Positions 11,923 through 44,067 of a stretch of 64,000 bases of DNA are shown one piece after another. The position numbers and the translations under genes are program-made. The notes under the pieces are model-generated. The model ran no database searches and was not told the DNA's origin. It was given only the letters and a program-made list of their open reading frames with translations. Origin of the DNA: Sphingobacteriales bacterium 50-39 (lineage in GTDB: Bacteria > Bacteroidota > Bacteroidia > Chitinophagales > Chitinophagaceae); the NCBI GenBank assembly GCA_001898505.1, contig MKTZ01000009.1, positions 372,001 to 436,000 on the forward strand. The letters run 5' to 3'. Within the stretch, counting starts at the first letter, position 1. Every line of letters begins with the position of its first letter.

Positions 11923-13422
11923 ATGTTAGGAAAATTAGCCGGCTGGGATGACACTATTGTAGCCCTGGCGACCCCGCCGGGGATAGGCGCTATTGGGGTG
12001 ATCCGGGTCAGTGGTCCGGATTGTTTTAGGATCGTTGGGCGTCTCTTTCCTTCCAAGGATCTGGAACAGCAACCTTCCCATACCCTGCATGTTGGGTTTT
12101 TGAAAGAGGGGGAGGAGACGCTGGATGAGGTGGTGGTTTCGCTGTATCGCGGGCCACGTTCATATACCGGTGAGGATGTAATAGAAGTGTCTTGTCATGG
12201 CAGTCCGTACGTGCTGGAGCGGGTAATGCAAGCCATCCTCCGGCAGGGGGCGCGGTTGGCCAGAGCGGGGGAGTTTACCCAGCGGGCCTTTTTAAAGGGG
12301 AAGCTGGACCTTACACAGGCAGAGGCCGTGGCCGACCTCATCGCCAGCAATACGGCAGCATCGGCGCGGACAGCGCTACATACTATCCGGGGTGGTTTTT
12401 CCCGTGCGTTGTCTGAATTAAGGGAGCAGCTGCTGCAATTTTCGGCACTGATAGAGTTGGAGCTGGATTTTGCGATGGAGGACGTGGAGTTCGCTGACCG
12501 TGGAAAGTTCTATGCGCTGATATCCAACGCCGAGGATATGACGGGGGAGCTGTTGCGGTCATTCAAGTTGGGGAACGTGATACGAAACGGGGTTTCGGTG
12601 GCTATTGTGGGGAAGCCCAATGCAGGCAAGTCCACGCTGCTCAACACGCTATTGAATGAGAACAGGGCCATCGTTTCGGAAATTGCAGGCACCACTCGCG
12701 ATACGATAGAGGAGATATTGAATATCGACGGGATATTGTTCCGGCTGATCGATACGGCGGGTATACGACATCATACGACGGATGTGATCGAAAGTATTGG
12801 GGTGGGGAAGAGTCTGGAGAAGATGCAACAAGCCGATATTGTGGTGTACCTCTTCGATGTGATGGATGGGGTGGAGGAGGTGATGGGGGCAGTGACGACC
12901 GTCCAGGGTCGGGGTGCCGGGCCGGGGGCTTTAGGGGGCGAGGCTGTCGATGGCCGGGGGGGTGAAGCTATTGCCGGGGCCAGGGAAGCCATTTCGGGTC
13001 CTACCAGGGCCGACGTGCAGACGGCGGGCAAGCGCTTTCTCTGGGTGGGTAATAAGGTGGATGCGATGACGGAGGATGCGGCGCGCCGGAAATTCCCTTT
13101 ACTGCCGGAGGCGATCTTCATATCGGCCAAGGAGGGTAGGCAGGTGGATCTGTTGAAACAGCGGCTGGTGGACCAGGTGCTGCAAGGGAATACCCAGACG
13201 GAGGGAACGATCGTGACGAATGCAAGGCATTATCATGCGCTGCAGCAGGTCGATACGGCGTTGAAGGCGATACGTAAGGGGCTGGATGACGGGCTGCCGG
13301 GGGACCTGCTGGCATTGGATATCAGGCATTGTCTATACTATTTGGGCGGAATTACTGGCTCAGAGATCACTAATGAAGATCAATTAGACTATATATTTAG
13401 TAAGTTTTGTATTGGGAAGTAG
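11923..13422 (+). CDS. mnmE: tRNA uridine-5-carboxymethylaminomethyl modification GTPase MnmE
   Basis: 499 aa GTPase that, with MnmG, installs the cmnm5 group at wobble uridine 34 of tRNAs. N-terminal tetrahydrofolate-binding domain (TPPGIGAIGVIRVSGPDC; GSPYVLERVM; GEFTQRAFLKGKLDLTQAEAVADLI), central helical domain, inserted G domain with G1 GKPNAGKST (about residues 230-238), G3 DTAG and G4 NKVD, and the essential C-terminal FCIGK. Usual length is about 455; here a Gly-rich insertion of some 45 residues lies before NKVD. The last six codons form the attachment core of the downstream island, whose integration leaves the reading frame intact. The gene is preceded by its own promoter. Confidence 0.96.
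   Translation: MLGKLAGWDDTIVALATPPGIGAIGVIRVSGPDCFRIVGRLFPSKDLEQQPSHTLHVGFLKEGEETLDEVVVSLYRGPRSYTGEDVIEVSCHGSPYVLERVMQAILRQGARLARAGEFTQRAFLKGKLDLTQAEAVADLIASNTAASARTALHTIRGGFSRALSELREQLLQFSALIELELDFAMEDVEFADRGKFYALISNAEDMTGELLRSFKLGNVIRNGVSVAIVGKPNAGKSTLLNTLLNENRAIVSEIAGTTRDTIEEILNIDGILFRLIDTAGIRHHTTDVIESIGVGKSLEKMQQADIVVYLFDVMDGVEEVMGAVTTVQGRGAGPGALGGEAVDGRGGEAIAGAREAISGPTRADVQTAGKRFLWVGNKVDAMTEDAARRKFPLLPEAIFISAKEGRQVDLLKQRLVDQVLQGNTQTEGTIVTNARHYHALQQVDTALKAIRKGLDDGLPGDLLALDIRHCLYYLGGITGSEITNEDQLDYIFSKFCIGK
13405..13422 (+). other. Left attachment core (attL) within mnmE
   Basis: TTTTGTATTGGGAAGTAG, coding for the terminal FCIGK-stop of MnmE. The 15-bp portion TGTATTGGGAAGTAG recurs exactly at 34235 and 42780 and with one change at 44342. 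It is the crossover region inferred for the tyrosine integrase. Confidence 0.8.
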
Positions 13423-15112: not shown

Positions 15113-16180
15113 ATGGAAATTTTAAGTGAAGACTGCCTCAGCTTACTACCGGCTGATCTTGTGAAAAAGGCAGGTAATATGTCTAAGGCGTATCAATATC
15201 TTTATTGCCTCGAAAACTTGGTGCGAATGTATATAGATGAACATCCTTCTAGGCAATTTATCCGCATTCCGTCAAGCTGCCAGAAAATGGCCAATGGCCG
15301 AAAAGATGACGAATCAAAGCATAAATGGTCTTCATTACGTGGTAATTCAGATTTGTACTATTTAGATTTCAAAGACTTATCAGGCATTCTGACATATAAT
15401 TGGGAACATTTTAGCTCGGATTTTCCCACGCAAAGCTGGATCGCGGCTAAACTTGAAGATATGGCTCGCTGCCGCAATTTAATTGCTCATAACAGTTATC
15501 TTCTCAAGGACGAGCAAGATTTGATACGTGTGCATTTCAATCTGATCACACGACAACTAGGACTAAATAAACTTCGGATAGCAGACAAAGAAACACGCGT
15601 TGTATCTCCTGAAAAGGGTTTTGTGGATGGGTTAAAAAGATTTACAATCTGGACGCATCAACAAGCTTCAAAGGGCGCTGATTTTTCGCTTGAATATCCT
15701 GCCAGTTTGGACGTCGCCCCCGTTTTATTGCAGGCCTTTTACAATCAGACGAGCATAGCATTCTATATCGTTTTTGAAAATGCAAGGGTGCCGATTTTCC
15801 CGAATTTCGAAACTGGCAGAAGAAAAGATATTGCCGAAGAACGCTGGCTAAAAGATAACGTTCTTTTCCAGGTGGGCCAATACGATATTGATCAAGACGG
15901 TATAGATGAGATATTTATCTGTCTTCAAGATTATCAAGAAAAAGTTATAGGCGGTGGCATTGAGATAAAAGTCTTCAAATATTATCCGCCAGCTTTTCGA
16001 CATCATGCTTTCCGTGCACAAAACTGGGAATTGGTTGGCGACTTCCCATTCGATTCGATTGGTGGCGAACCTAAGGCCTATATTCACGATACGTCCATAA
16101 AAGTGCCTCGAAATTTGCGGGGCTTTTTCTATCAATGGACCTATTCTGAGGGCCAATTCAGAAATACTGGATTCTGGTAG
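15113..16180 (+). CDS. Swt1-like HEPN domain protein
   Basis: 355 aa. The N-terminal ~150 residues have the Swt1-type HEPN pattern: helix YLYCLENLVRMYIDEH, aromatic-rich middle, and the RX4H ribonuclease motif in MARCRNLIAHNSYL (R121, H126). HEPN domains are metal-independent RNases common in toxins and antiviral systems. The C-terminal half is unrelated to anything I can name; it includes an acidic DIDQDGIDE loop resembling a calcium-binding or VCBS-type repeat. It is convergent with the REase-HEPN gene (22 bp between stops). Standing in cargo DNA behind an element relic, it is probably defensive; RNase activity is inferred from the motif only. Confidence 0.72.
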   Translation: MEILSEDCLSLLPADLVKKAGNMSKAYQYLYCLENLVRMYIDEHPSRQFIRIPSSCQKMANGRKDDESKHKWSSLRGNSDLYYLDFKDLSGILTYNWEHFSSDFPTQSWIAAKLEDMARCRNLIAHNSYLLKDEQDLIRVHFNLITRQLGLNKLRIADKETRVVSPEKGFVDGLKRFTIWTHQQASKGADFSLEYPASLDVAPVLLQAFYNQTSIAFYIVFENARVPIFPNFETGRRKDIAEERWLKDNVLFQVGQYDIDQDGIDEIFICLQDYQEKVIGGGIEIKVFKYYPPAFRHHAFRAQNWELVGDFPFDSIGGEPKAYIHDTSIKVPRNLRGFFYQWTYSEGQFRNTGFW

Positions 16181-16201
16181 TTGGATGTAAGTAGTAAGTT
16201 T

Positions 16202-16858
16202 TTAGTTTTCTTTCACTATTTGTTCAATAATATCAGTTAATTTTTCAATTGTACTTTTGTTTAAATCGGACGCCAAATAACCATGGACAACTTTGTTTCT
16301 TATGTCAAATAGTTTTTCGAGCAAATCAAGCTCTTTATGTGAAATATATCCAAAGGAAAATAAGGTTTTGATTAAAGTCAATGGGTTCTTGTTTTTTAAA
16401 TTTTTATTATCATCAAGCAGCAATTGTCTCGATAAGCTTTCTAAGCAGCTCCATGATAGGATAAATGCTTCCCTGAAGAATTTCAATTTAGTTAGTGTTT
16501 TAACTTCGCTTAACACCCTGCTAAGATCAGTGGTTTTTATAAATTCTAATTGAGGCTTTCTTATGGATTCAACTTCTTGCCTAGAAGTTGTGACTACAAG
16601 TTCAAACCTCCAACCCTTTCTTTCATTAATTAAATCTGCGACATCCTTCAGTTTCTCAATTGCTGCCATGTCCGATCTTGTTGTAATTTCGATCACAACA
16701 TTCTCTGAATCATTCGAAGCAATTATGTCAGGAAGATAATTGTGAATAAAAGAAGGTATATCCTTTCCTTTGGGTTCAACTATTACGCGATACCCTCTTT
16801 TTTCGTAATCACGGGCGACCTGCTTAATTTTATTTTGCTCGATTACTTTTGTGTCCAT
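16202..16858 (-). CDS. REase-like nuclease fused to HEPN domain
   Basis: 218 aa. Residues 1-100 show a restriction-endonuclease-like core as in the REase_AHJR family: GYRVIVEP, then LPDIIA (D44) and VVIEITT (E57), with Thr where the catalytic Lys of PD-(D/E)XK usually stands, so cleavage may be altered or lost. Residues ~120-210 form a HEPN helical bundle with RNKVVHG (R187, H192), the RX4H motif. The ATG at 16858 begins 1 bp after the RusA stop; an alternative ATG at 16873 overlaps it. Either way the two genes are translationally coupled. Target, DNA or RNA, is unknown. Confidence 0.68.
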   Translation of the reverse strand: MDTKVIEQNKIKQVARDYEKRGYRVIVEPKGKDIPSFIHNYLPDIIASNDSENVVIEITTRSDMAAIEKLKDVADLINERKGWRFELVVTTSRQEVESIRKPQLEFIKTTDLSRVLSEVKTLTKLKFFREAFILSWSCLESLSRQLLLDDNKNLKNKNPLTLIKTLFSFGYISHKELDLLEKLFDIRNKVVHGYLASDLNKSTIEKLTDIIEQIVKEN

Positions 16859-16859
16859 C

Positions 16860-17261
16860 TTATATCTCTTCAAAATTAGTGGATAGAATTACCTTGACAT
16901 GAATGAAATCTGCATCCATCACGAAACCGTCCGCCATAGCGCGGGATAATCCCTTAACTTTAAAAGAACCTGTAATTTTTCTTTTTTTTGTCATGCAATC
17001 CGTAATCTGACTGTCGTCATTGTAAACAACACCGATCAAGGCGTCTTGAATGGGTTTTACAATGTTGTCAACATCGGGAGCAGCATCCTCGTAGAAATTC
17101 GTAACAATTATGGTAAGTTCATCAGCGGATGGAGGATCACCCGCAGGCCAATAGATCTGTGCAGCCTGCCGTACTCTTTGCTTCCATGCTTGCAGTCTTG
17201 CCCTTTTTTTGGTTTGCTGCGAAACGGGAGGTCCCTTAACAACAAAATCAAATGGTATCAT
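16860..17261 (-). CDS. rusA: RusA-family Holliday junction resolvase-like nuclease
   Basis: 133 aa from ATG 17261 (MIPFDFVVKGPPVSQQ, the typical RusA opening strand); the open frame extends further upstream to 17306 without support. It has the family signature DVDNIVKPIQDALIGVVYND with the metal-binding Asp residues (about D63, D65, D73, D82) and the Asn-Lys pair. Classic RusA cleaves Holliday junctions in phage and element DNA. Here it is the first gene of a two-gene operon with the REase-HEPN protein, an unusual pairing for a resolvase. Confidence 0.85.
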   Translation of the reverse strand: MIPFDFVVKGPPVSQQTKKRARLQAWKQRVRQAAQIYWPAGDPPSADELTIIVTNFYEDAAPDVDNIVKPIQDALIGVVYNDDSQITDCMTKKRKITGSFKVKGLSRAMADGFVMDADFIHVKVILSTNFEEI

Positions 17262-17366
17262 TAAAAAATTTAGGTTAATTAATTGCCCATATATTACTTG
17301 TGTCATTTGAAGATAAAATAATTTGTGCTGATTAAGGTAAAAAAAATAGGTTAGGACGGAGTGGAT

Positions 17367-17394
17367 ATTTTAAAGGATGAAACTCCTTTAAAAT
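17367..17394. other. Perfect 11-bp inverted repeat upstream of the rusA operon
   Basis: ATTTTAAAGGA-TGAAAC-TCCTTTAAAAT. It lies 105 bp upstream of the minus-strand rusA start, within the 303-bp divergent spacer between rusA and the relic/OLD region. It could be an operator or a structured leader; there is no T-run beyond the stem to make it a convincing terminator. Confidence 0.45.
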
Positions 17395-17440
17395 AGGACA
17401 AAAGTAAGGGTAAGTAAAAGCTTGGTAATTTTTTCACACT

Positions 17441-17528
17441 GAGATGGGCGCTCGCGGGGAGGGTGAGGCCGGAGAAGGAGGGGAGTAAGCATATCTTTAG
17501 CAGGGTGGATTTGAAGGAAATACCGTGA
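17441..17528 (+). pseudogene. Second relic of the excisionase-like gene
   Basis: About 85 bp matching the 3' end of the gene at 13659: GATGGGCGCTCGCGGGGAGG then GTGAGGCCGGAGAAGGAGGG, corresponding to RRWVLAGKVRSEKVGRQHLF, followed by TTTAGCAGGGTGGATTTGAAGG and a stop. The rest of the gene is missing. It is GC-rich in AT-rich surroundings, as the intact copy is. Another old left-end trace. Confidence 0.65.
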
Positions 17529-17609
17529 AAACACCTGTCAATAATTCAATGCATTAAGGTAGCTTGCTGTTCATTCCATTCGTTAAAAGTAGTAAAACCC
17601 CGTTGCTAA

Positions 17610-19274
17610 ATGAAACTGCAAAAACTTATTATTAAAAATTTTAGAGGGCTAAAAGGAGAAAGTAACACTATTGACTTTTCAAAGTCAAATATTATCTTTT
17701 TAATTGGTCAAAACAATGTTGGTAAGTCTTCATTCTTGAGAGGATATGAGTTTTTTGTTAGTGCAAAACAGACAGCAAGTGAATCTGATTTTTACGACCA
17801 TAATAAAGAGATTCCTATAGAGATTGAAGGAGTTTTTTTAAAGGAACAGACTGATGATGCCGAGGCTGATTTTGTAGGGAAAGGAAAGCAGTCAGAGCCA
17901 GATTGGGTTAATAAATGGGTTGATGAAAGCAACTTAGTTAAGATTAAGAAGATATGGAGAGCTCCTGACGAAGTAGGGGAAAAATATACTTTTTCACCCG
18001 CGCAAAATGAATGGATGAAAGATGGATTTGGAGGAATGCCTTCATTATTTCAGAAATACTCTCCTACACCAATTTGTATAAGTGCAATGGAGACTGAATC
18101 AACTCTTGAAGAAAAGGTAAATAAGTTGATTCAAGATGAAATGTTAAAAAAATTACGTGAGGATTATCCAGATGATTTTAATAATCTTCTCAACGGAGTT
18201 AAAGAGTTACAGAAGAAAATTTTAGGGTCAGATATTGTGGCCTCTTATAATGAGGATATTAATGAGCAGTTCAGAAAGGTATTCACCAATCTGACTCTAA
18301 AGATTGACCCCAAGAATGATGAATATATAAAGCTTGAAGATGCTTTTAAGAAAAATCACTCTGTTAATGTAACTAAAGACGGAATTGAACGTAGTGAAGT
18401 ATTTACTCAACATGGGCATGGCGTAATAAGGCAGGCGCTTTATAATTTTATCTCCTTCCTTAAAAGAGAAAGAGGCGGAAATAAAAAGGAATATCTTATT
18501 TTATTTGAAGAACCGGAATTATTCCTTCATCCAGAAGTATCCTTTAGATTAAGGAAAAGTCTATACGAATTGGCAGAAAATAGCCCATTTCAAATTCTTT
18601 GTGCTACTCATTCCCCTTTAATGATTGATATATCAAAACCTCATTCTTCTCTAGTTCGAGTAATAAAAAACGAGGATGAGACAACCGAAACACATCAAGT
18701 TGGCGATGATGTTTTTAGGAGCAGCCATGAAAAAAGACAAAGAATTCAGATGGTAAACCGATTTAACCCCCACGTCTGTGAATCATTTTATGCACGTAAG
18801 GTAATAATTGTTGAGGGCGATACGGAAGCTATAGTGTTTCGTGACTTAATTAACAGATTCTATAATCAATTCGAAGTATATGTCTTAAATGCAGGTACAA
18901 AGAATAATATTCCTTTCTTTCAGGAAATATTTACCGCGTTTCATATAGAACACCATGTGATACATGACAGCGATTCTCGGGTCAATGAAAATGGAAATGC
19001 AAACAGTGCATGGACTTTGAATGGTTCAATTTGGGAAAAAGTAGAACAGGCAAATGCAAAAAGAAATGGATTGGCAAGAAGATATGTTCATGTTGAGAAT
19101 TTCGAGTTGGCTCATGGGGTAGATTTGACGGGGAAGGATAAACCTTTAAAGGCATATGATTATGTGATAGCACTTACACACGAATCTGATGTGCCTTGTT
19201 TAAATTATTTGAAGGATTTATTGGGTGCTAAGGTTATTGTTCATGATAGTGCTTTTGTCGACGCCTTACCTTAG
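17610..19274 (+). CDS. OLD-family nuclease (ABC ATPase plus TOPRIM)
   Basis: 554 aa. The N-terminal ATPase has LIIKNFRGLKG and Walker A GQNNVGKSS (residues ~33-41); Walker B is in YLILFEEPELFLHP (~300), with the ATHSPLMID switch. The C-terminal TOPRIM domain has IIVEGDTEAIVFRDLI and, after it, VIHDSDSR for metal binding. Overcoming-lysogenisation-defect nucleases nick or degrade DNA in an ATP-regulated way and act against phages. No gajB-type helicase or other partner is adjacent on the same strand, so it fits class 1 (stand-alone) OLD. It is divergent from the rusA operon; the next gene downstream is convergent radC. Confidence 0.88.
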   Translation: MKLQKLIIKNFRGLKGESNTIDFSKSNIIFLIGQNNVGKSSFLRGYEFFVSAKQTASESDFYDHNKEIPIEIEGVFLKEQTDDAEADFVGKGKQSEPDWVNKWVDESNLVKIKKIWRAPDEVGEKYTFSPAQNEWMKDGFGGMPSLFQKYSPTPICISAMETESTLEEKVNKLIQDEMLKKLREDYPDDFNNLLNGVKELQKKILGSDIVASYNEDINEQFRKVFTNLTLKIDPKNDEYIKLEDAFKKNHSVNVTKDGIERSEVFTQHGHGVIRQALYNFISFLKRERGGNKKEYLILFEEPELFLHPEVSFRLRKSLYELAENSPFQILCATHSPLMIDISKPHSSLVRVIKNEDETTETHQVGDDVFRSSHEKRQRIQMVNRFNPHVCESFYARKVIIVEGDTEAIVFRDLINRFYNQFEVYVLNAGTKNNIPFFQEIFTAFHIEHHVIHDSDSRVNENGNANSAWTLNGSIWEKVEQANAKRNGLARRYVHVENFELAHGVDLTGKDKPLKAYDYVIALTHESDVPCLNYLKDLLGAKVIVHDSAFVDALP

Positions 19275-22091: not shown

Positions 22092-22367
22092 CCGTTAGTA
22101 TTCGAATAAACCGGCGATCGTTTTAATGAGTACGCTTTCATTTTAATGAATAGAGTTGGAATTTGACGGGCTTTAACGCGTTAAAAACTATTTTAAGGCA
22201 ATCTGTCTGTCATAGGGTTAGAAACCCGGTTTTGTATGAAGAATCCGCTAAAATATCGCTTAAAAAATAGGTATTTTCTGATAAGGAATATACCGAAAGA
22301 TAAAATCCTGCTTTGAAACCCGCATAAATAGGGATGCCTGTTGTTTGGTCGGCTGATCTCGGGGAAG

Positions 22368-22387
22368 TTTAGTCCCAGATTAGTAAC
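22368..22387 (-). promoter_or_regulatory. Inverted arm-type site upstream of the integrase gene
   Basis: TTTAGTCCCAGATTAGTAAC, the reverse complement of GTTACTAATCTGGGACTAAA, ends 16 bp before the integrase start. The complement matches the right-end site at 42722 at 19 of 20 positions. It is best read as an integrase-binding site that lets the recombinase regulate its own gene, or as part of a former attP. Confidence 0.7.
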
Positions 22388-22403
22388 AAAAAAACGACAA
22401 ACA

Positions 22404-23540
22404 ATGCGAATCCATCTAAGAAAGCGGGTTAGTCAGCTATCGGGAGATAGCACGGCCAAAGGAACAAAGAAAATGAGTAGTCTCTATCTTGCCTTCCAGG
22501 CACCCAGACAGAAGACGCGCTATGAATGGCTGAAACTGTATGTTTACGAGAGCCCCAAAACCAATCTTGAAAAAGAACACAACAAAGAGACGATGCAACT
22601 TGCTGAATCCATCCGGGCTAAGCGGATGCTAGATTTCCAGACCACAGGCAACGGTTTTGCCAGCAGTGAGAAAGGCAAAATATCTTTCCTTGAGTACTTC
22701 CGTCTATTGGCAGAAAAGAAAGCCGATATATCGAACGGTAACGGGGGTAATTGGAAAAGGACTTATGAGCACCTAAAGGACTATTGCAACGGGGCTGATT
22801 ACACACTTGAAAGTATCGACGATCGTTTTCTGGACGGGTTTAAAGATTACTTATCTAAGGATATCAGCCGTCGGGGAAAAGGCAACATAAATCCGAATTC
22901 GGCACTTTCATACTTTAACAAAGTGCGAGCTTCTTTACGGGAGGCCTATATAAATAAGATGATTAGGGAGAACCCATGCGCTCGGATCAAAGGGATAAAA
23001 GGAAAGGAAACGCACCGACAGTTCCTCACTTTCGAAGAATTGAAACAACTGGTGGCGACTCCTTGCGATAACGAGCTATTGAGAAAAGCCTTCCTTTTTA
23101 GCGCCCTCACCGGACTTCGCTGGAGCGACGTGAGAGCCATGACTTGGGATAAGATCAGTTATTCGGAGGCCAGCGCCTGGACGATCAACTATACACAGAA
23201 GAAGACTAAAGGATCGGAGGTGCTGCCGGTCTCAGAACAGGCGATCCGGGTACTCGGGGAGCGGCTGCCGGGCGATCAGGAGATATTCGACGGGCTGAAA
23301 TACCACACCTGGATGAATGAGCAGCTACAGAACTGGGTAGACGAAGCTGGTATAAAGAAGAAGATCACTTTCCATTGCGCCAGGCACTCCTTCGCCACCC
23401 TCCAGCTCGCCAATGATACGGATATCTACACTGTAAGTAAGTTGCTGGGACATAAGCACTTAAAGACAACTGAAATATATACAAAAGTAATTGATAGGAA
23501 GAAAATAGATGCCGCCAAAAGGATACCGGAATTAATTTAG
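22404..23540 (+). CDS. Tyrosine recombinase / site-specific integrase
   Basis: 378 aa from ATG 22404 (MRIHLRKRV); the open frame continues to 22341 but that would run through the inverted arm-type site. N-terminal arm-binding domain ([10 protein letters not shown]...), SAM-like core-binding domain ([13 protein letters not shown] ... LKDYCNG), and the catalytic domain with [10 protein letters not shown] (R239), [10 protein letters not shown] (H324, R327), [10 protein letters not shown] (H350) and EIYTKV (Y359). This is the only complete integrase of the island and the probable agent of integration at mnmE. It sits about 9 kb from the left core rather than at an end, consistent with cargo having accreted outside it. 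Confidence 0.93.
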
Positions 23541-31345: not shown

Positions 31346-32410
31346 ATGCAACTTGCTCACGAGCTTTTAAGCTTTTTTAATGATGGCTATAATGATGGGA
31401 GCTCCTTCCGACCTTTTTCTTTGATGCAATTCGTTGAAAAGAACAAGGAAATTGTAAGTGGTGTTTATAAGATTACCCATTATTGCAAAAAACTTGAACA
31501 AGAGGGCTTATTAGATCATATGGGTCGAACAGGAGATCACCCGTTTTTTGGGCATCATTATTATACAAACAAAAGATTTTACAACCCCGATTTAAGCATC
31601 TATGGAAGTTATGATTTGCTAGTCAACGGTTTTTCAGCTGTTAGAGAAAGGTTTAAAGAGACATGCTTGGCTATTTCAGTATTGCAGCAAGATGATGAGT
31701 ATTCAATTGGGTCATCGTTCGTTTACAATCATGATACGATTATCACGGCAAGGCATTGCCTTGAAGGGCATAAAAGCTTTAAACTCCTGGATTTTTCCGG
31801 TAACTCTATACCGATTGAGGACATATATTTTTCGATTGATACTCAACTGGACTTGGCTGTATTAAAAACTTCAAAGAATTATTTTCATTCTCTTCCAGTG
31901 CATGCCTTGCCTCCAAAGCCGGAACACATTGGAAATACTCCTACAGATGATGTAAATATAATAGGGGCACCTTCAGTGGTCTATTTTGGCGTCGGTAAGG
32001 TTTTAGATGATATTATTACATTAGGCTATCCTCCAATAGCTGGCTTTGAAAGCATATTAATTGCTGATAAATCATCGATTAATTCAGTGCTACTTCGATC
32101 TTCAATTGGGCAGGTGCTCAGCGAAGAAAAGAAATATTATGGCGATATTGAATACTTATTAATGAATGCTAAGGTAAAAGGTGGAAATAGCGGGGGGCCT
32201 GTATTTGACCGGAAAGGGAGGGTTATTGGTATTGTTGTTGAGATTTCCGCAGACTTTAAGAATCCGGAATTGATAGATAAGCTGGGATATGGAATTATTA
32301 TTCCATCGAGGTATATTAAAGATCTATTAGTAGCAATTCAAAATGGGGATGAATTAGCGGTAAAAGTTAAAGTTCAGCCCGTAGGGGAAGACTCTTATAA
32401 ATTGGCTTAA
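31346..32410 (+). CDS. Trypsin-like serine protease with N-terminal winged-helix-like domain
   Basis: 354 aa, no signal peptide, so cytoplasmic. Residues 1-105 look like a helical/winged-helix module (SGVYKITHYCKKLEQEGLLD; HHYYTNKRF). The S1 domain has the full triad: ITARHCLEG (H137), TQLDLAVLK (D169) and KGGNSGGPVF (S282); an insertion of about 30 residues lies between Asp and Ser strands. Cytoplasmic trypsin-like domains are known effectors in bacterial conflict systems (for example fused to STAND ATPases or effector-associated domains). Last gene of the unit 30518-32410. Confidence 0.82.
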   Translation: MQLAHELLSFFNDGYNDGSSFRPFSLMQFVEKNKEIVSGVYKITHYCKKLEQEGLLDHMGRTGDHPFFGHHYYTNKRFYNPDLSIYGSYDLLVNGFSAVRERFKETCLAISVLQQDDEYSIGSSFVYNHDTIITARHCLEGHKSFKLLDFSGNSIPIEDIYFSIDTQLDLAVLKTSKNYFHSLPVHALPPKPEHIGNTPTDDVNIIGAPSVVYFGVGKVLDDIITLGYPPIAGFESILIADKSSINSVLLRSSIGQVLSEEKKYYGDIEYLLMNAKVKGGNSGGPVFDRKGRVIGIVVEISADFKNPELIDKLGYGIIIPSRYIKDLLVAIQNGDELAVKVKVQPVGEDSYKLA

Positions 32411-34176: not shown

Positions 34177-34249
34177 GTTACTAATTCAGGACTAAAATCG
34201 GTGAAACCCGCTAAGATGGCGGGTTTTTATTTTCTGTATTGGGAAGTAG
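34177..34249 (+). other. Right-end copy 2: arm, hairpin and intact core
   Basis: Arm GTTACTAATTCAGGACTAAA at 34177, hairpin AACCCGC/GCGGGTT (34204-34225), and the core TGTATTGGGAAGTAG at 34235-34249, 58 bp after the arm start. The core equals the end of mnmE exactly. The hairpin also terminates transcripts of the DUF433/PIN pair. It marks a complete internal attachment site. Confidence 0.8.
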
Positions 34250-34352
34250 GCGGGGCGCGCTGGACGCGGGTTTTGCACTGAAAATCAGGTGTTTTCACGG
34301 TGCCGACTTGTTGATTTTAGTGCTTTATTTGTCTTTGTTTATGGTTTTTATG

Positions 34353-34403
34353 GTGGGAATCTGGTTGCTAGTTTTGAAATTAGTGACCACAGGGACGTGT
34401 TGG
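34353..34403 (+). repeat. Degenerate ~50-bp repeat, copy 1
   Basis: GTGGGAATCTGGTTGCTAGT followed by TTTGAAATTAGTGACCACAG recurs as copy 2 at 35113-35167. Translation gives GNLV-x-(S/T)F-x-x-SDHR-x-x-VL, resembling the start of KilA-N-type phage proteins, but neither copy continues into a full domain. The stretch 34250-34502 is otherwise empty. Confidence 0.45.
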
Positions 34404-35104: not shown

Positions 35105-35112
35105 CACTAATA

Positions 35113-35167
35113 GTGGGAATTTGGTTGTTACTTTCAAAAGTAGTGACCATCGGGTGAACGTGTTGGG
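35113..35167 (+). repeat. Degenerate ~50-bp repeat, copy 2
   Basis: GTGGGAATTTGGTTGTTACT followed by TAGTGACCATCGGG, partner of the copy at 34353. The two copies bracket the frameshifted gene 34503-35104. Confidence 0.45.
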
Positions 35168-36799: not shown

Positions 36800-36887
36800 A
36801 AGTGTAGACTTGGGTAAAGAAGATGATAAATACAAGCCTCCAGCTAGTACTGACATAGGCGGCTATATCATATGTAATATATCATGA
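36783..36887 (+). CDS. 34-residue micro-ORF, coupled
   Basis: MNGIVKSVDLGKEDDKYKPP then ASTDIGGYIICNIS. It overlaps the preceding gene by 17 bp and the nuclease gene by 4 bp (ATGA at 36884), which is why I accept so short an ORF. The middle (DLGKEDDKYKPPAS) vaguely recalls the GK-x-K-x-x-Y-x-P block of the microproteins at 30960 and 31145, but this may be chance. Confidence 0.5.
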   Translation: MNGIVKSVDLGKEDDKYKPPASTDIGGYIICNIS

Positions 36888-38290
36888 CTGAACGTCAAAT
36901 ACAAACATACTTGTGGGAAAATAGGGATAGGTGGGATGAGCTAATTGAAGAAATTACTTTCCCGGAGAAATATAGTTTTGATGAGAGCGAAGAAGCGATA
37001 TATGAGCGTACACCCGACAAAGTTTTATTTAATGAAATTGTAGACAGGTATTCCAAGCTTTACGAAAACCTTTTTGGTCTTAGGCTTTTTGGTTGCGAAG
37101 TTCCATTAAAGAAAGATGGAGATAGCACGATCCGCGCAGATTTGCTTGGATTGGTTGACGGTGTATCAGGTATTGCAATAGTTGAGATTAAGAAGAGTTC
37201 ACAGACTGAAAGGCAGGCATTTACCGAATTGTTTGCATATGCATCGCATTTGCAAGCGATTTTCCCAACTATGACAGACGATGATGTCCATTATGTGCTA
37301 ATTTCACCAATGCAAGAAAGGATCGTAAGGGAAGCATCAATATTAAGTTTTCTATTCGATGAAAAGCCTGTCTTTGCTTTTATACCTACATATGAAAATG
37401 ATAATGTAGACACAATTAGGTTAAAGCCTTGGATACCTGTTATTGACGAAATAATTAAAATATCTGAATCTGCTTTTTCTCAAAAAAATTTCGAAATATT
37501 TAAGGTGACGTGGGAGGAAATACAAGGTTGGAATCCCTCAAAAAATAAGAACCCAGACGAGCACATGGCTGAGAGAATGAATAGGATTTCATCGTACGCA
37601 GCTCAACTTATGGAGTCAAAGAGGATTCATGGTTTTGTTTTTACCTCGCAAGGATATCCCGAATTACCGTTTTTAAATAATGCTATTATAGTTGCTGGGT
37701 TGAACCCCTTTAAAGTTGCCAAAGACAACTACTTGATTTCTGAACATAAAATTCGTCCTCATAAACTGGAGTCTATTGGTGATGAGGAAATTAATTTAAC
37801 TCAAATTATTCCAGAGCTTCTAAAAAGAGCAAAGGAAGTCAATGAAGAAGGTGACTTTTTTTATGAGTTAGTCACCACTTGGGACGATAATTTGATTAGA
37901 ATTGCATTTAACACAGTTGAGGTAATGACTACAAATGATAAGAATCTTTCTTTTGAAAGGGGATGGGGAGGAATGACTTGGAAAGAATATCAAGGAGTTT
38001 TACTGGAAGATGGACTTTGTTTCAACTACGATATGAAGGCGACTGGGTTAGTTCGAAAATTATTTGTAAGCTATACAATTGAGGACTACAAGTATATGGC
38101 AAAATTTGGAACTGAGAAGCATCCATATTTGGGTCATGGCGATGTTCCTGATTTTATGGTGGATTACTTGAACGAGCAAACATATTTTAGGGATTTTTTA
38201 TATAATATTTTTGAATCCTATAAGGACATTTATGAAGAATTTGATGAAGACTTGGATGGAGATGAAAAATCAGACCAAGACTCCTTATGA
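36884..38290 (+). CDS. PD-(D/E)XK nuclease of the coupled operon
   Basis: 468 aa. An N-terminal nuclease domain shows VPLKKDGDSTIRADLLGLVD (D86) and GIAIVEIKKSSQTERQAFTE (E101-x-K103) with a following Gln/Glu helix, the PD-(D/E)XK order. The remaining ~300 residues (from about 170) are a large helical/beta region with no family I know, ending in an acidic tail EEFDEDLDGDEKSD. Stop overlaps the following 30-residue membrane ORF by 4 bp. No methylase is present. I infer a defence nuclease with its own sensing domain. Confidence 0.72.
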   Translation: MTERQIQTYLWENRDRWDELIEEITFPEKYSFDESEEAIYERTPDKVLFNEIVDRYSKLYENLFGLRLFGCEVPLKKDGDSTIRADLLGLVDGVSGIAIVEIKKSSQTERQAFTELFAYASHLQAIFPTMTDDDVHYVLISPMQERIVREASILSFLFDEKPVFAFIPTYENDNVDTIRLKPWIPVIDEIIKISESAFSQKNFEIFKVTWEEIQGWNPSKNKNPDEHMAERMNRISSYAAQLMESKRIHGFVFTSQGYPELPFLNNAIIVAGLNPFKVAKDNYLISEHKIRPHKLESIGDEEINLTQIIPELLKRAKEVNEEGDFFYELVTTWDDNLIRIAFNTVEVMTTNDKNLSFERGWGGMTWKEYQGVLLEDGLCFNYDMKATGLVRKLFVSYTIEDYKYMAKFGTEKHPYLGHGDVPDFMVDYLNEQTYFRDFLYNIFESYKDIYEEFDEDLDGDEKSDQDSL

Positions 38291-38379
38291 CAAATACTAA
38301 TTGTACTCATGCCATTGAAAAATGGGTGTTTTTCACGTTTTTCATTTGTCTAATTCTCCTTATTTTGCTTCATAGGTAA
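38287..38379 (+). CDS. 30-residue single-TM peptide
   Basis: ATGA-coupled to the nuclease gene. The peptide begins MTNTNCTHAIEKW and continues into VFFTFFICLILLILLHR, i.e. a short polar head and one transmembrane helix with a basic end. Only 5 bp separate its stop from the next ATG. Size and layout resemble type I toxin or membrane-leader peptides; inside this operon it may be the membrane effector or an assembly partner of the three-TM protein. Confidence 0.6.
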   Translation: MTNTNCTHAIEKWVFFTFFICLILLILLHR

Positions 38380-38384
38380 TTTAT

Positions 38385-39131
38385 ATGACGAGATTCGAGT
38401 TTTATAAAGATATATATTATAAAGAGCTTGAAAGGAAGAAGTCGTTGAGCGATTCTTTGACATTACCGATCGGAATTATAACCGGACTTATAGCATGGCT
38501 CTTCTATTTCTTCAATACCTATATTACTAAGGTAGAATCAAAGGTTCCGATGTGGACTTTTGTCATTTATATTTCAGCTCTTGTTGCATTGGTTGTTGCA
38601 ATTTATTTTCTAACGTTATCTTATTTTGAACCCAAGTTCAAATGGAAGAAATATTACTTTAATATTACCACAGCGTATAATTACTATTACATTGCTTTAG
38701 CAAATGAGTACGAAAAATATTATACCAAGACAAATAAAGAGGATGATTTAGAAAAAATCTTGATTGAAGATTTTATAAACTGTGCTCAATATAATACAAC
38801 GCTAAACGAACGAAAGACTGCTAGACTTTTGAAAGCTAAAATATGTATGGTTGGTTGCTTATTTCTGAGCTTCGGTTTACTTGTATTTCCAATGACAAAT
38901 AGATCCGCACTAAGCGAAAGTAAACCGCAAGAAGTTAGGATTATTGACACTGTTAAAATAAAGCATATGAACCTCGCTACCGAAAATCAACCTCCAAAGG
39001 AGGATAAACCAAAGGCTCAACCTGGTCCTGAGCCTAAAATTTTGCCAGAGAAGCCGGTGGAAGATAGACCCAAAATAAGGATAATACCGGAAACTAAGGT
39101 GCCTCCCCCTGGGAAGCGGTTACACTCTTAA
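38385..39131 (+). CDS. Three-TM protein with Pro-rich cytoplasmic or periplasmic tail
   Basis: 248 aa. N-terminal amphipathic helix (FYKDIYYKELERKKSLSDSL), hydrophobic segments at about 27-45, 57-79 and 150-168, and a C-terminal tail of ~70 residues dominated by Pro, Lys and Glu (PPKEDKPKAQPGPEPKILPE). Last gene of the coupled operon. The layout parallels the separate three-TM protein plus Pro-rich microproteins at 30518-31312. Confidence 0.62.
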   Translation: MTRFEFYKDIYYKELERKKSLSDSLTLPIGIITGLIAWLFYFFNTYITKVESKVPMWTFVIYISALVALVVAIYFLTLSYFEPKFKWKKYYFNITTAYNYYYIALANEYEKYYTKTNKEDDLEKILIEDFINCAQYNTTLNERKTARLLKAKICMVGCLFLSFGLLVFPMTNRSALSESKPQEVRIIDTVKIKHMNLATENQPPKEDKPKAQPGPEPKILPEKPVEDRPKIRIIPETKVPPPGKRLHS

Positions 39132-39154: not shown

Positions 39155-39225
39155 GCTATCTTGGTGATAAATTTCGTCAAAACGCCCTAAAATCGAGAGT
39201 TTTCATTTTCTGTATTGGGAAATGA
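39155..39225 (+). other. Right-end copy 3, degraded
   Basis: A worn arm (GCTATCTTGGTGATAAAT at 39155), AACGCCCTAAAATCGAGAGTT where the hairpin should be, TTTCATTTTC, and the core TGTATTGGGAAATGA at 39211-39225, which has three changes in its last four bases. Its layout matches the other right ends. It is probably no longer a substrate. Confidence 0.65.
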
Positions 39226-39264: not shown

Positions 39265-41994
39265 TCATACGTATTTATGGCTTTTCCTGCGCCCAATTTT
39301 AGCTGCATGTAAATGTGCAGTCTTTTTACAATGGTTACGAAAGCCCGTTATTCCGCCAAAAGCACGAATAGCGTTGGCAATCCACCCCATTTCCAAATCT
39401 TTTAGTTCCGAGTTCGAAAGATGGCGCTTTTGTTTGAGGCAAATCTTTTCATAGGCCTTTATTGTCATGCGCTTTTTCTTTTCCCGGCGTTTTTCATAAA
39501 TTAATCTATATTTTGAAATATGAGCAGGAGATCTATAAGGGAGGTCTAAATTTATCATTTTCTTAATCACGGGATATTTGAATTCTTTCAAAATGAACCG
39601 GGCCAGCTTTCCTTCTCCCAATTGAACGAGTCTATTCATCGTAACGTGATATTTTTCACGGATACAAATTTTTCGGTATTTGTCGACGGCCTCTTCTCGT
39701 GAAATCTGGGGCCGGTTCTGTTTGACAACCAATTTCAGACCAGACAATTTACGGATACGCGAAAGCCCGACCACGCCGTCGATATATACTGCCAGCTTGA
39801 TCGGCATACATTGCCGGGCTTCTCTCCCCGTAAGAAAATATCCCTTTTCGTGGCAAATTTTTGTATAAGCCGCCACAGCATAAGCCTCTGTATAATAACC
39901 GACAGGCAGGACCTTTGGCAAATAGTCCAGCCGGGTCATCTTCCGAAGCCGGTGTATACCGATCTTCTTCCTTTTCATAAAATTGAGGAGCTGTCCAAAG
40001 CCCTTTTCCTTAGCCTCCTTCAGAGTAAGAAACTTTTGTTCTTTCTCACATAGATCCTTGTACTCGCATACAGCTCTTCTAATCGTATAAGGGTCCGGGC
40101 GACCTCCAATCCGATCCCCATGTTTACGTTCCAGAAAACTTCGAAGACTTTTTATACATCTTGTTCTGTCTATCGCATTGGCCAGATTTATCTTTCCCAG
40201 TGATCTAAGCTCGCTCACACTCATTGTCCGCCCCTGCTCCAGACAAATTTCAACATATTCCTGTCGGATTCTGGCCGCCGTATAATGCCCTTTACGAACA
40301 CCCTTGGTTTCCAGACCCCATTTTTCAGCCAGATCAAATAAGGAATTATGATACTTTGTGACAGCACTTACAAGAGCTCCCAGACCTTCCCGCTTCAGCT
40401 CGCTTCCCTGGGGCATCCGGCCGTATTTTTCGATATGGGGTTGTAATATAACCTTTATATTTTCAGCATTGGACCAAAATATCCTGGGCATGATTCCATG
40501 CCCGCTTCCTGTATTCTTTATTTTTCGTTTAAGCCCTTTGATTTTTTTCAGAATAGACAACACTTCCATCTCGATCAACTCCGGTCTTTGTTTAAAAACC
40601 CGGGCGGGTATAATAATTACGTCTTTGTTAAGCCTTTTGTATATCCTTTCCTTTTTCTGCATATTTCTTTCATATGTATCATCTCCCTTTCTATAGTAGC
40701 CGGCAATTTCAATATAGGTTTTCTGTATAAGGAAATCGCATTTATATCGGAGATCAGGAGTGATCAACACATGCGTTTGATGAGGAATATGATGTTTATT
40801 GAGAATATTGTCAAAAATGCATTCGTAAGAGCTTTGAAGATAATGCCCATCATCGGCTTTATGCAAAGTACGAATCGGAACATTCATCAATTCGGAAAAT
40901 CGGCGCACACCGCCATGCTTCCTCATAGCGGCTATCAGATCCTGTCTTTTTATCGACCTGAGCACGGTCTGGCTCGGTATACAATCGAATTGTTTGACTA
41001 TGGGCTCTAATCCGACCACGATCGTATCATCATTCCAATGCTTGTACTTCCTGCCCGGAGCGCCTATTTCCTCCCTTATCTTGCTTAGCCAGCCGTATCG
41101 ATGAATATTGCCCGCGAGATCTGCATGTCCGATTTTCCGAAGATTCCTTTTGCTCAGATCATGACCCTCCGAATGCAGTATTTTCAATCTCGAAATCACC
41201 TTTTCCTTATTCCATTTCTTTCCGACAATGTACAGACCTAACTTATATTTTTTATTCAGAAAGGAAAGACCGCCATGAATTCCTATAGCATGAATCAGAC
41301 CAAGTTCCTTTTTATCTGTCAGGACCCGATGCATAGATGTACGATGGATCTCATCGGCATACGTCTTATAGAATAAGCGTAAGCTCTTCAGCGTATTTCT
41401 AAGCGACCAATGATGATTGGGTTTCTTTGCAAGCGGGATCTTTAGTTTTCTTTTGAGGGCAGTGATCGATCCGAAGTGAGTACGTATGCGAGACGGCAAA
41501 GCAGAATAGCCATTTTCTTCGAGATAAACACATGTTGGTGCCACACCAAGCGAAATATACAATTTACGATATGTTTCAAGTACCTCATCGGCGGTAGTAT
41601 CTTGTTTTTCTACCGCCTTGAATCCCATTTCTCTTTTTATAGAGGACAAGGTTCCCAAATGCCTGATCACAGAAAGCAGTTCCGACCGCCCCATATTGAT
41701 CAGGGACAGCTTGGTTATCGGATGCCCTTCGTTATGAATACGCCAGAGCTCATCCATCAGCTGCTCTTTTGTCCATTTCTCGTGGTGACAGGGTAATTCA
41801 AGCCCTAACTCCTTTCTGACCGCCTTAGTGCCGCCTAAAGCCTTTATGGCCTCCCACAATTCCGGCTCATTGTGTACCCTGAAAACGTGGTAGGTAAAAG
41901 TATGTGTCTTAAAATACTCTTTGTGAATTTTTAAAAATTTCTTCAGTCTGGATTGTAGCTTCCTTCTAGTCCATTGATTGTTGAAAGTGTTCAT
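39265..41994 (-). CDS. Giant repeat-array nuclease (homing-endonuclease-associated-type repeats with Vsr-like core)
   Basis: 909 aa, strongly basic. About twelve diverged repeats of ~60 residues, each with a W/Y-(T/N)-x-E-x-x-x opening, a helix ending IHNEGH or ICLEQG, a short N/L-x-x-x-G loop and a closing GG-x-x-x-(I/L)-(R/K) helix. Clear examples are KWTKEQLMDELWRIHNEGH (~74-92), KWNKEKVISRLKILHSEGH (~260-278) and later YTEAYAVAAYTKICHEKGY. These resemble the HNH-associated repeat of homing endonucleases. Between repeats six and seven (~388-470) sits a nuclease core: SSYECIFDN (E391), KCDFLIQKTYIEIAGYYRKG (D420, E429), as in Vsr/EDxHD enzymes. Six repeats on each side suggest extended sequence-specific DNA binding. 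It fills the third island segment. Confidence 0.72.
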   Translation of the reverse strand: MNTFNNQWTRRKLQSRLKKFLKIHKEYFKTHTFTYHVFRVHNEPELWEAIKALGGTKAVRKELGLELPCHHEKWTKEQLMDELWRIHNEGHPITKLSLINMGRSELLSVIRHLGTLSSIKREMGFKAVEKQDTTADEVLETYRKLYISLGVAPTCVYLEENGYSALPSRIRTHFGSITALKRKLKIPLAKKPNHHWSLRNTLKSLRLFYKTYADEIHRTSMHRVLTDKKELGLIHAIGIHGGLSFLNKKYKLGLYIVGKKWNKEKVISRLKILHSEGHDLSKRNLRKIGHADLAGNIHRYGWLSKIREEIGAPGRKYKHWNDDTIVVGLEPIVKQFDCIPSQTVLRSIKRQDLIAAMRKHGGVRRFSELMNVPIRTLHKADDGHYLQSSYECIFDNILNKHHIPHQTHVLITPDLRYKCDFLIQKTYIEIAGYYRKGDDTYERNMQKKERIYKRLNKDVIIIPARVFKQRPELIEMEVLSILKKIKGLKRKIKNTGSGHGIMPRIFWSNAENIKVILQPHIEKYGRMPQGSELKREGLGALVSAVTKYHNSLFDLAEKWGLETKGVRKGHYTAARIRQEYVEICLEQGRTMSVSELRSLGKINLANAIDRTRCIKSLRSFLERKHGDRIGGRPDPYTIRRAVCEYKDLCEKEQKFLTLKEAKEKGFGQLLNFMKRKKIGIHRLRKMTRLDYLPKVLPVGYYTEAYAVAAYTKICHEKGYFLTGREARQCMPIKLAVYIDGVVGLSRIRKLSGLKLVVKQNRPQISREEAVDKYRKICIREKYHVTMNRLVQLGEGKLARFILKEFKYPVIKKMINLDLPYRSPAHISKYRLIYEKRREKKKRMTIKAYEKICLKQKRHLSNSELKDLEMGWIANAIRAFGGITGFRNHCKKTAHLHAAKIGRRKSHKYV

Positions 41995-42203
41995 ATCCTT
42001 ATTACGTCAATGGTACCATTTTCCACTCAATAAGCGCGCAATTTGCCCATAAATTGAGGCGAAAAGAGAATAGAAGAATACCGGGAATGGCTGGGACTGG
42101 ATTTGCTGATCTGAATCAATTGTTTTATTTTCAATATGTTAGTTGTTTTTTGGGTTTTGCAATTGGCTTTCAAAACTGGATATTTATAGGTAATTTTGTT
42201 GGA

Positions 42204-42486
42204 ATGACTTGCAAGGATGTATTATTTAGTGATCATGCTATCACCCAGATGTTTAAAAGAAATATTTCGATAGATCAAGTGAAGCGAGTCATTGAGAGTG
42301 GAGAGAGAATAGCTGAGTATCCAACTGACAAACCTTATCCCAGTTGCCTTATGTTTGCCTATATCGGCAATCGACCAATATGTAGTAGCAGGAAAAGACG
42401 AAGAAGAAAGCCGGTGTATTATTATCACAGCTTATGAGCCAGACTCGACCATTTGGGAACCTGGCTTTAAATCAAAAAGGAGTTAA
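42204..42486 (+). pseudogene. Frameshifted DUF4258 toxin
   Basis: From ATG 42204: MTCKDVLFSDHAITQMFKRN, ISIDQVKRVIESGERIAEYP and LMFAYIGNRP, standard DUF4258 (RelE/MqsR-like). Near 42378 the frame is lost; the expected end (YVVAGKDEEESRCIIITAYE then PDSTIWEPGFKSKRS-stop) is in another frame and stops at 42486, 1 bp before the antitoxin gene. A single indel inactivates the toxin, while the antitoxin remains intact. Confidence 0.82.
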
Positions 42487-42487
42487 T

Positions 42488-42715
42488 ATGGATTGTGTTT
42501 TGTGTAAAGCGGGAACCACTGAAAAAGGAACGATAACAGTAACCTTGGAGCGGGATGGCGCAATTGTTTTAATTAAAAACGTTCCGGCAGAAGTTTGTGC
42601 TAATTGCGGCCACTATTACCTTTCAGAAGAAATTACCCGTATAATCATGCAAACGGGAAATGAGGCTATTGAAAAAGGTGCCGAGCTAGAAGTGGTAAAG
42701 CTGAAAGTGGCTTGA
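42488..42715 (+). CDS. YgiT-type zinc-finger antitoxin
   Basis: 75 aa from ATG 42488 (the open frame extends upstream through the toxin end). CVLCKAGTTEKGTITVTLER and EVCANCGHYYLSEEITRIIM give the two CxxC pairs of the YgiT/MqsA N-terminal zinc domain, here without the C-terminal helix-turn-helix. Cognate of the broken DUF4258 toxin immediately before it. Confidence 0.85.
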   Translation: MDCVLCKAGTTEKGTITVTLERDGAIVLIKNVPAEVCANCGHYYLSEEITRIIMQTGNEAIEKGAELEVVKLKVA

Positions 42716-42721
42716 TATCCT

Positions 42722-42794
42722 GTCACTAATCTGGGACTAAATTTGTTAAAACCCGCGATTATGGCGGGTTTTCATTTTCTGTATTGGGAAGTAG
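42722..42794 (+). other. Right-end copy 4: arm, hairpin and intact core
   Basis: Arm GTCACTAATCTGGGACTAAA at 42722, hairpin AAAACCCGC/GCGGGTTTT around 42749-42772, core TGTATTGGGAAGTAG at 42780-42794. Spacing between arm start and core is 58 bp, as in copy 2; the core is identical to the mnmE end. Confidence 0.82.
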
Positions 42795-42849: not shown

Positions 42850-43470
42850 TTATGTTTTGGAACAGAAAGTATTATCAAAGTATTTTAAGAGATTATCCGT
42901 TGGAGTTGTATTAGCATTATGCCGTTGTAGGGGTTCAGTGACTAGGGGGTATTCATCAATGAAATTCAGGTCATCGATTTGATCAAGCGAAAAAGCCTGC
43001 ATTATTTTTTTAAACGATTCTGGGTTGACTCCCCAATATTGTACATATTTGGCAGGCACTACAAAAAACTCTTCAAAGTAGTCATCGGTTTGAAACGCAA
43101 TGCCGAATTTTAGAAGGCCATCCTGTGTCAATTCGATTTCATACGGAAATAAGGTATTGAGAATTTCAAATTTATCTTTATAAGGGCTGCAATTGGGAGT
43201 TTCATCATCTTTATGCCCATAGATGAAATAAACCTCGTCCGGGAATTGAAGCAAGAATACCTGGAACAAATGCCATAGATTTACATTGTCAATATTTATC
43301 TCACAAAAGAATGCAAAAGGTTCTCCGTGTGATGTGTTTGGTTTCAAAGTGTACCCTTGGACAATGTTAGCCGTTTGGCGGCGTTTTATGTTCTCCAGTA
43401 TATCCTTATGCTGAGGTACTTCATCCGGGCGAGGAGTTCTTATCGTTGGGGCCAATTGTAATTCGCGCAT
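42850..43470 (-). CDS. Hypothetical protein
   Basis: 206 aa from ATG 43470 (MRELQLAPTIRTPRPDEVPQ); the frame extends to 43521, but that would overlap the divergent zeta-toxin start. Acidic alpha/beta protein with FAFFCEINIDNVNLWHLFQV, FPDEVYFIYGHKDDETPNC and EEFFVVPAKYVQYWGVNPES. I see no motif that names a function. Divergent from the zeta relic and the only intact gene besides the 44086 ORF in the fourth segment. Confidence 0.6.
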   Translation of the reverse strand: MRELQLAPTIRTPRPDEVPQHKDILENIKRRQTANIVQGYTLKPNTSHGEPFAFFCEINIDNVNLWHLFQVFLLQFPDEVYFIYGHKDDETPNCSPYKDKFEILNTLFPYEIELTQDGLLKFGIAFQTDDYFEEFFVVPAKYVQYWGVNPESFKKIMQAFSLDQIDDLNFIDEYPLVTEPLQRHNANTTPTDNLLKYFDNTFCSKT

Positions 43471-43514
43471 ATTGGCGTAAGATAGGGAAAGCCGATATAT
43501 TTGCAAATCACCCA

Positions 43515-44067
43515 ATGCCAAATTTATATATTATAGCGGGATGCAACGGTGCTGGCAAGACGACTGCCAGTTTTACCATTTTGCCGGAAATACTTGAATG
43601 CAGGGAATTCATCAATGCGGATAGTATAGCGGCTGGACTATCTCCTTTTAATCCTGCGAGAGTTGCAATAGAAGCCGGCCGGCTTATGCTTCAAAGGATT
43701 GGCCAATTAATGAGGGAAGAGGTGGATCTTGCTTTTGAAACTACACTGGCAGCAAGAGGCTATGTATCACTGATCAAGGCTGCCAGAGAAAAGAGCTATG
43801 AGGTTACATTACTATAGTTCTGGCTAAGCTCGCCTGCGGTGGCGAAAGAGAGGGTAGCAAGAAGAGTCAGTATGGGTGGTCATGATATCCCGACAGAGAC
43901 AATAGAGCGCAGATATTTTTGCAGGCATTCGAAACTTGATCGATCTGTACGCTCCCATCTGTGATAATTGGATGGTTATTAATAATTTAGGAAATCGCCC
44001 CGAGTTGATAGCCAACGGCACAATGGGAGGCGAAACTCTGATAAAAAATAACGATATTGGGAGATAA
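43515..44067 (+). pseudogene. Zeta-toxin-like kinase, two frameshifts
   Basis: Starts MPNLYIIAGCNGAGKTTASF (Walker A at residues ~9-17), then ECREFINADSIAAGLSPFNP and VDLAFETTLAARGYVSLIK, the zeta/UDP-GlcNAc-kinase pattern, until a stop at 43817. The continuation lies in a second frame (FWLSSPAVAKERVARRVSMG, GGHDIPTETIERRYF) and after another indel near 43920 in a third (AGIRNLIDLYAPICDNWMVI to 44067). The toxin is inactive as read. Confidence 0.82.

Follow-up and report, generated by a model that had tools for sequence, protein, structure and literature searches.

We find that a 7.9-Mb genome, that of Sphingobacteriales bacterium 50-39, encodes a 909-residue protein in which a single nuclease core lies between two arms of six repeats each. 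The gene occupies positions 39265 to 41994, on the minus strand, of the 64,000-nucleotide stretch of contig MKTZ01000009.1 that was analysed (here, the window). We consider the chances about even that the protein is a site-specific DNA endonuclease that arose from free-standing homing endonucleases of phages, recognizes a long site, and is now cargo directed against rivals.

The open reading frame comprises 909 codons, starts with ATG, and has a ribosome-binding-like AAGGAT immediately 5′ of its start. The product is basic (net charge +94, pI 10.1), and every one of its repeats carries a net positive charge (+3 to +18). Six repeats of 59 to 65 residues stand on either side of residues 381 to 505, which hold the one nuclease core. 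The N-terminal arm consists of R1 (residues 8 to 72; 41779 to 41973), R2 (73 to 131; 41602 to 41778), R3 (132 to 194; 41413 to 41601), R4 (195 to 259; 41218 to 41412), R5 (260 to 318; 41041 to 41217), and R6 (319 to 380; 40855 to 41040). The Vsr-like PD-(D/E)XK core (381 to 475; 40570 to 40854) is followed by a basic linker (476 to 505; 40480 to 40569) and the C-terminal arm: R7 (506 to 568; 40291 to 40479), R8 (569 to 633; 40096 to 40290), R9 (634 to 698; 39901 to 40095), R10 (699 to 761; 39712 to 39900), R11 (762 to 825; 39520 to 39711), and R12 (826 to 909; 39268 to 39519). All of these lie on the minus strand. An original prediction, made from the letters of the window and its translated reading frames, had described this frame with about six repeats per side. 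Both the layout and the periodicity on which that prediction depended are borne out. A self dot-plot shows off-diagonals at multiples of ~60 to 65 residues, and leave-one-out hidden Markov models recover all 12 repeats at 5.1 to 37.6 bits, compared with at most 4.3 bits for shuffled versions of the same repeats. The weakest are R4 and R7; R3 to R10 are also present in relatives.

No match to the protein was found in Pfam, NCBIfam, or PDB by phmmer. A PHROGs search gave phrog_22655 (0.0012; residues 32 to 177), which is the counterpart of the HNH_repeat family, PF18780; proteins fetched with phrog_22655 match PF18780 at up to 1e-28. PF18780 itself did not match the window protein, and no protein genome-wide exceeded its curated Pfam cut-off of 26 bits; one relative matched it below that cut-off (20.7 bits, 5e-4). 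Profile-profile alignment with hhalign matched the whole repeat to PF18780 with 96% probability (E 2e-9), and the score of 40.2 compares with at most 12.5 in 60 column shuffles. At the profile level, the repeats are thus related to the homing-endonuclease-associated repeat, as the original prediction had proposed. They differ from PF18780 in being ~8 residues longer, in scoring under the curated cut-off, and in number, with twelve copies here versus one to four in the members examined. The literature on the homing endonuclease associated repeat or on PDC-S69, a PADLOC candidate discussed below, yielded nothing informative.

In a two-repeat model (pLDDT 86, pTM 0.50), each repeat forms a self-contained four-helix unit, and the relative orientation of neighbouring units is loosely defined, as in beads on a string. 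The top solved-structure matches are helix-turn-helix domains, all weak (Z 4.5). These small units probably grip DNA. We rejected a TALE-like code of one repeat per base; the repeats are 59 to 65 residues long, and R2 to R12 are just 11 to 28% identical to the first repeat, rather than short and near-identical. Repeat positions conserved among orthologs and variable among paralogs were not found beyond chance. The few columns that differ between the window protein and its relatives in every repeat are close to the number expected by chance, and we claim no specificity-determining positions.

It had also been suggested that the protein recognizes its site symmetrically about the cut. The repeat counts are symmetrical (6+6), but the arms do not consistently resemble each other in mirror order: the observed value was reached in 1% of permutations for the window protein, and in 46% and 33% for two relatives. 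Symmetric recognition is unsupported, given that all repeats run N-to-C and each chain has one active site. The arms would instead extend along the DNA to either side of the cut and jointly specify a long site. This site would not be palindromic, because the repeats share one orientation and neither arm mirrors the other. Since each chain has one active site, a double-strand break would require either a dimer or two nicks.

The acidic residues E391, D420, and E429 were verified in the core and are invariant in all relatives found, so that the triad named in the original prediction is not lost in homologues. Predicted core elements are helices at 390 to 400 and 440 to 454 and strands at 406 to 410, 417 to 423, 426 to 432, and 458 to 462. 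In a low-confidence model of the core (pLDDT ~50), their order is alpha-beta-beta-beta-alpha-beta; helix 1, strand 2, and strand 3 carry the acidic residues. The best structural match is the homing endonuclease domain of I-Bth0305I (92 of 98 residues), at a Z of 7.7 that sits slightly below the tool's safe level and was obtained with this low-confidence model as query; Foldseek gives a TM of 0.55 for the same pair, but at an E of 5. The whole model had no significant Foldseek match. Sequence and model together point to a Vsr/PD-(D/E)XK nuclease domain. Of the Vsr/EDxHD-like core originally predicted, the Vsr-like fold stands and the literal EDxHD motif does not: histidine is absent from the stretch between D420 and residue 495, strand 3 reads E429-I-A, and the active-site motif is E-D-E...K.

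I-Bth0305I, which binds as a dimer to a site of nearly 60 bp (PMC3943268), shares with the window protein the core fold, the E and D positions, and the link to extended DNA-binding regions. It differs in having a His-Asp pair where the window core has E429/K448; the window core is also central, with twelve repeats distributed on both sides. The nuclease core is further shared with PDC-S69 (E 6e-8; residues 374 to 465), although the match is limited to positions 177 to 268 of the 289 in that model. Invariant in the core and PDC-S69-type nucleases are D-G-H-Y, E391, D420, E429, G432, and K448. PDC-S69 proteins carry a KilAC/winged-helix-like part at the N-terminus and have none of the window protein's repeats.

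Vsr-like folds also serve RNA-binding proteins, such as FASTKD4, in which the fold acts on RNA without cleavage (PMC11879112). Helical repeats that read RNA and a core that binds or cuts it, as in RAP/FASTK proteins, would agree with the second structural match of the core, a Toxoplasma mitoribosome chain, whose Z of 6.4 comes with an rmsd of 13; RAP/FASTK proteins showed no sequence match to the window protein. We regard an RNA target as improbable: the catalytic residues are invariant in bacteria and phage, the nearest repeat is one named for DNA homing endonucleases, and the phage relatives described below lie in DNA-homing settings. The site-specific endonuclease that we favor would bind and cut DNA, not RNA.

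Relatives are rare. A family-level search of ~300 Chitinophagaceae genomes retrieved the gene's own genome and two others, with relatives of 627 aa (35% identity to the window protein; genome G461) and 571 aa (genome G646); one further relative, of 628 aa, came from a Chitinophagaceae metagenome-assembled genome in a scan of 84,980 species. The window repeat profile found only the own genome among 395 genomes of the phylum, and single-sequence searches of INPHARED phages, plasmids, and IMG/VR retrieved no full-length relatives. The homologues align to residues 128 to 755 at 35 to 36% identity, with 63% identity in the core and 23 to 38% in the repeats, and the three are 60 to 69% identical to one another.

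The original prediction had proposed a survey of homologues for variable repeat number, and the number does vary: the window protein has 6+6 repeats and the three relatives 4+4, 4+4, and 4+3, around the same core and in the same order. A profile built from window repeats alone finds 8, 8, and 6 repeats in the relatives at the positions predicted by alignment; alignment gives 7 for the 571-aa relative, which ends after R9. Relatives retain R3 to R6, the core, and R7 to R9 or R10, and are without R1 to R2 and R11 to R12. R1 and R2 are nearest to the relatives' R4 and R5, R11 is nearest to R8/R9, and R12 within that pair is nearest to R8. These extra repeats therefore look like internal duplications, or else like losses in the relatives. 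If duplications, the arms would have lengthened from within, with R4-R5 giving rise to R1-R2 and the R8/R9 type to R11 and R12.

Synonymous sites are saturated, whereas non-synonymous differences among relatives are 0.18 to 0.24, with dN/dS of 0.03 to 0.09 where measurable; the core evolves about three times slower than the arms. The gene is under long purifying selection. The repeats themselves correspond one-to-one between relatives. This correspondence bears on whether the protein might be a structure-specific or general nuclease, similar to Bax1 or a Holliday-junction resolvase, whose repeats provide affinity only. The core stretch YIEIAG resembles Bax1 (a weak sequence match), the structural matches include Hjc, a junction resolvase (Z 4.7), and phrog_9019 weakly matches a core relative. 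However, a mere-affinity role hardly explains divergent repeats that correspond one-to-one, and we consider a general nuclease quite unlikely.

One candidate, a large repeat protein of another genome (locus L034, 1 to 6094), matched the core and was rejected as a full relative; its repeats are not detectably homologous to those of the window protein. Its Vsr-like core is N-terminal to its own repeats, and its gene lies ~2.4 kb from a tyrosine-recombinase-like gene.

The most telling relatives came from a core profile search of IMG/VR, which retrieved two phage proteins, of 389 aa and 511 aa, both smaller than the window protein and both with repeats flanking the core. In the former, one repeat precedes the core and two follow it; this protein matches the core profile at 5e-19 and the window's own repeat profile at 1.4e-10, on both sides of the core. 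Its gene is directly 3′ of a gp23 major capsid gene (3.9e-87) and is followed by two genes of the phrog_559 nuclease family. On this 85-kb phage contig (L071, 4001 to 8512), three homing-type nuclease genes thus stand in a row straight after gp23. The 511-aa gene lies between a terminase gene with a Vsr/DUF559 nuclease gene and a portal-like gene (so labeled from reading its sequence), and the N-terminus of its product weakly matches phrog_12131, a homing endonuclease. The Vsr/DUF559 gene (L072, 2216 to 3673), directly upstream of the 511-aa relative, follows an apparently split terminase gene and encodes several helix-turn-helix units and then a DUF559/Vsr core.

Free-standing homing endonucleases classically occupy sites beside phage capsid and terminase genes (PMC10448857), and some phrog_559 members are Vsr-type nucleases of terminase-gene introns (PMC11878797); genes of this family directly adjoin that of the 389-aa relative. 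A large, previously unrecognised group of phage intron homing endonucleases has three to five beads of ~60 aa and then a Vsr core (PMC12350094), a likeness in both bead size and nuclease. Taken with the settings of the phage relatives, this likeness makes the window protein most readily understood as an expanded bacterial variant of these bead-plus-Vsr homing endonucleases, one whose core has a central position. It differs from them in that helical, HNH_repeat-like beads stand on either side of its core and its gene is cargo of a bacterial island, whereas their beads are CapR/DUF4379/DUF723-like and precede a C-terminal EDxHD/Vsr core. The T5orf172/CapR class V repeat homing nucleases also have beads-on-a-string DNA-binding domains, whose number changes via internal recombination, but another nuclease domain and zinc-finger beads (PMC10448857). 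Descent would most plausibly run from phage genes to the bacterial gene, not the reverse.

Kinship of this kind raises the possibility that the gene is a still-active selfish homing endonuclease, a free-standing gene that spreads by cutting alleles without it. The gp23 and terminase neighborhoods, shared with other homing nucleases, agree with this, as does the sporadic distribution of the gene (three of ~300 family genomes, its own included, and one more among the 84,980 species). The relatives, in spite of their mutual identity, lie at unrelated loci, beside sbcCD-like genes, a FAD-oxidoreductase gene, and a contractile-tail cluster, respectively, and no shared flanks or flanking motifs were found around the four genes. 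However, three relatives at three loci have no common homing site, the window gene is within an att-bounded element that has its own means of moving, and long purifying selection needs no homing. We regard selfish homing as possible, though on the unlikely side. Comparisons for two relatives revealed no target site or empty site; one flank stops at a contig end, and the other is without synteny in its relatives.

The window gene lies in an array of elements at the 3′ end of mnmE (11923 to 13422, plus strand), which is the integration target. The 3′-end sequence TTTTCTGTATTGGGAAG occurs at 13403, in mnmE itself, and again at 34230, 39206, 42775, and 44337, where 0.27 matches are expected by chance; the copies sit within 52-nt repeats. 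Two of these att-like repeats, both on the plus strand, bound the nuclease segment on the left (39170 to 39221) and right (42739 to 42790). The gene fills 77% of this 3.55-kb segment, and the remainder is a toxin-antitoxin remnant: a frameshifted DUF4258 toxin (42054 to 42437, plus strand; positions 1 to 53 of the 71 in the profile) and an MqsA-like antitoxin (42434 to 42715, plus strand; E 7e-6, under the Pfam cut-off) whose frame is open. The att boundaries and decayed pair had both been predicted, and the DUF4258 toxin does appear frameshifted.

From 13403 to 44353, the window holds four or more att-bounded segments in tandem, with the sole recognised integrase in the first (22341 to 23540). 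Site-specific elements are known to accrete at gene 3′ ends, including that of trmE/mnmE, and integrase-less segments resemble cis-mobilizable elements (PMC5704250); the mnmE array fits this accretion. On the best reading, an integrase-less att segment stacked at mnmE has the nuclease gene as its main cargo.

That the gene dominates such a segment might suggest a helper of the island, one that cuts mnmE attachment sites and so promotes or protects integration. The original prediction had raised action on these sites, an idea now weakened by the locations of the three relatives, which occupy unrelated places away from mnmE. None of the three is flanked by an mnmE-like att pair, and other integrase-less segments of the array carry no nuclease gene, which makes a helper role highly improbable. 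The metagenome-assembled genome has scattered partial mnmE-att matches, two of them inside the nuclease gene and one inside a DUF1016-like gene. For an endonuclease of phage descent, the role is the least certain step. Its context suggests that the most likely targets would be rival phages or mobile elements whose DNA bears its site.

Repeat number varies between relatives, and the protein is therefore perhaps a naturally modular long-site DNA cutter. Each helical repeat might add DNA contacts with separable specificity, the arms around the central nuclease might vary by repeat duplication, and islands might thereby gain new long sites against rivals; we think such a modular meganuclease unlikely, if worth stating. 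If confirmed, the protein would combine two long helical-bead arms with a Vsr-type nuclease, a layout described by no curated family searched here, and would add another phage homing nuclease turned bacterial island cargo. The natural series of 1+2, 4+3, 4+4, and 6+6 repeats could then reveal how repeat number sets target length, and the protein might offer a scaffold for long-site DNA cutters.

Other segments of the mnmE array carry further genes. In the first, a cluster at 15113 to 19274 encodes a HEPN-type protein, a REase_AHJR-HEPN fusion, and an OLD-family ATPase/TOPRIM nuclease. A trypsin-like peptidase gene within the island (31346 to 32410) adjoins small unknown proteins. The 34.2- to 39.2-kb segment encodes, at 36884 to 39131, a 468-aa protein that weakly matches the N-terminal part of type I restriction HsdR, adjoining a two-transmembrane protein with a match to the PADLOC 2TM effector model (7e-4); the two are possibly an undescribed defence pair. 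The same segment, second in the array, contains a 45-nt direct repeat (34350 to 34394 and 35110 to 35154; 80% identical, 760 bp apart). In the last segment, a zeta-toxin-like frame (43446 to 43817) is cut short, covering positions 12 to 126 of a 199-position profile, and therefore suggests a decayed toxin-antitoxin module.
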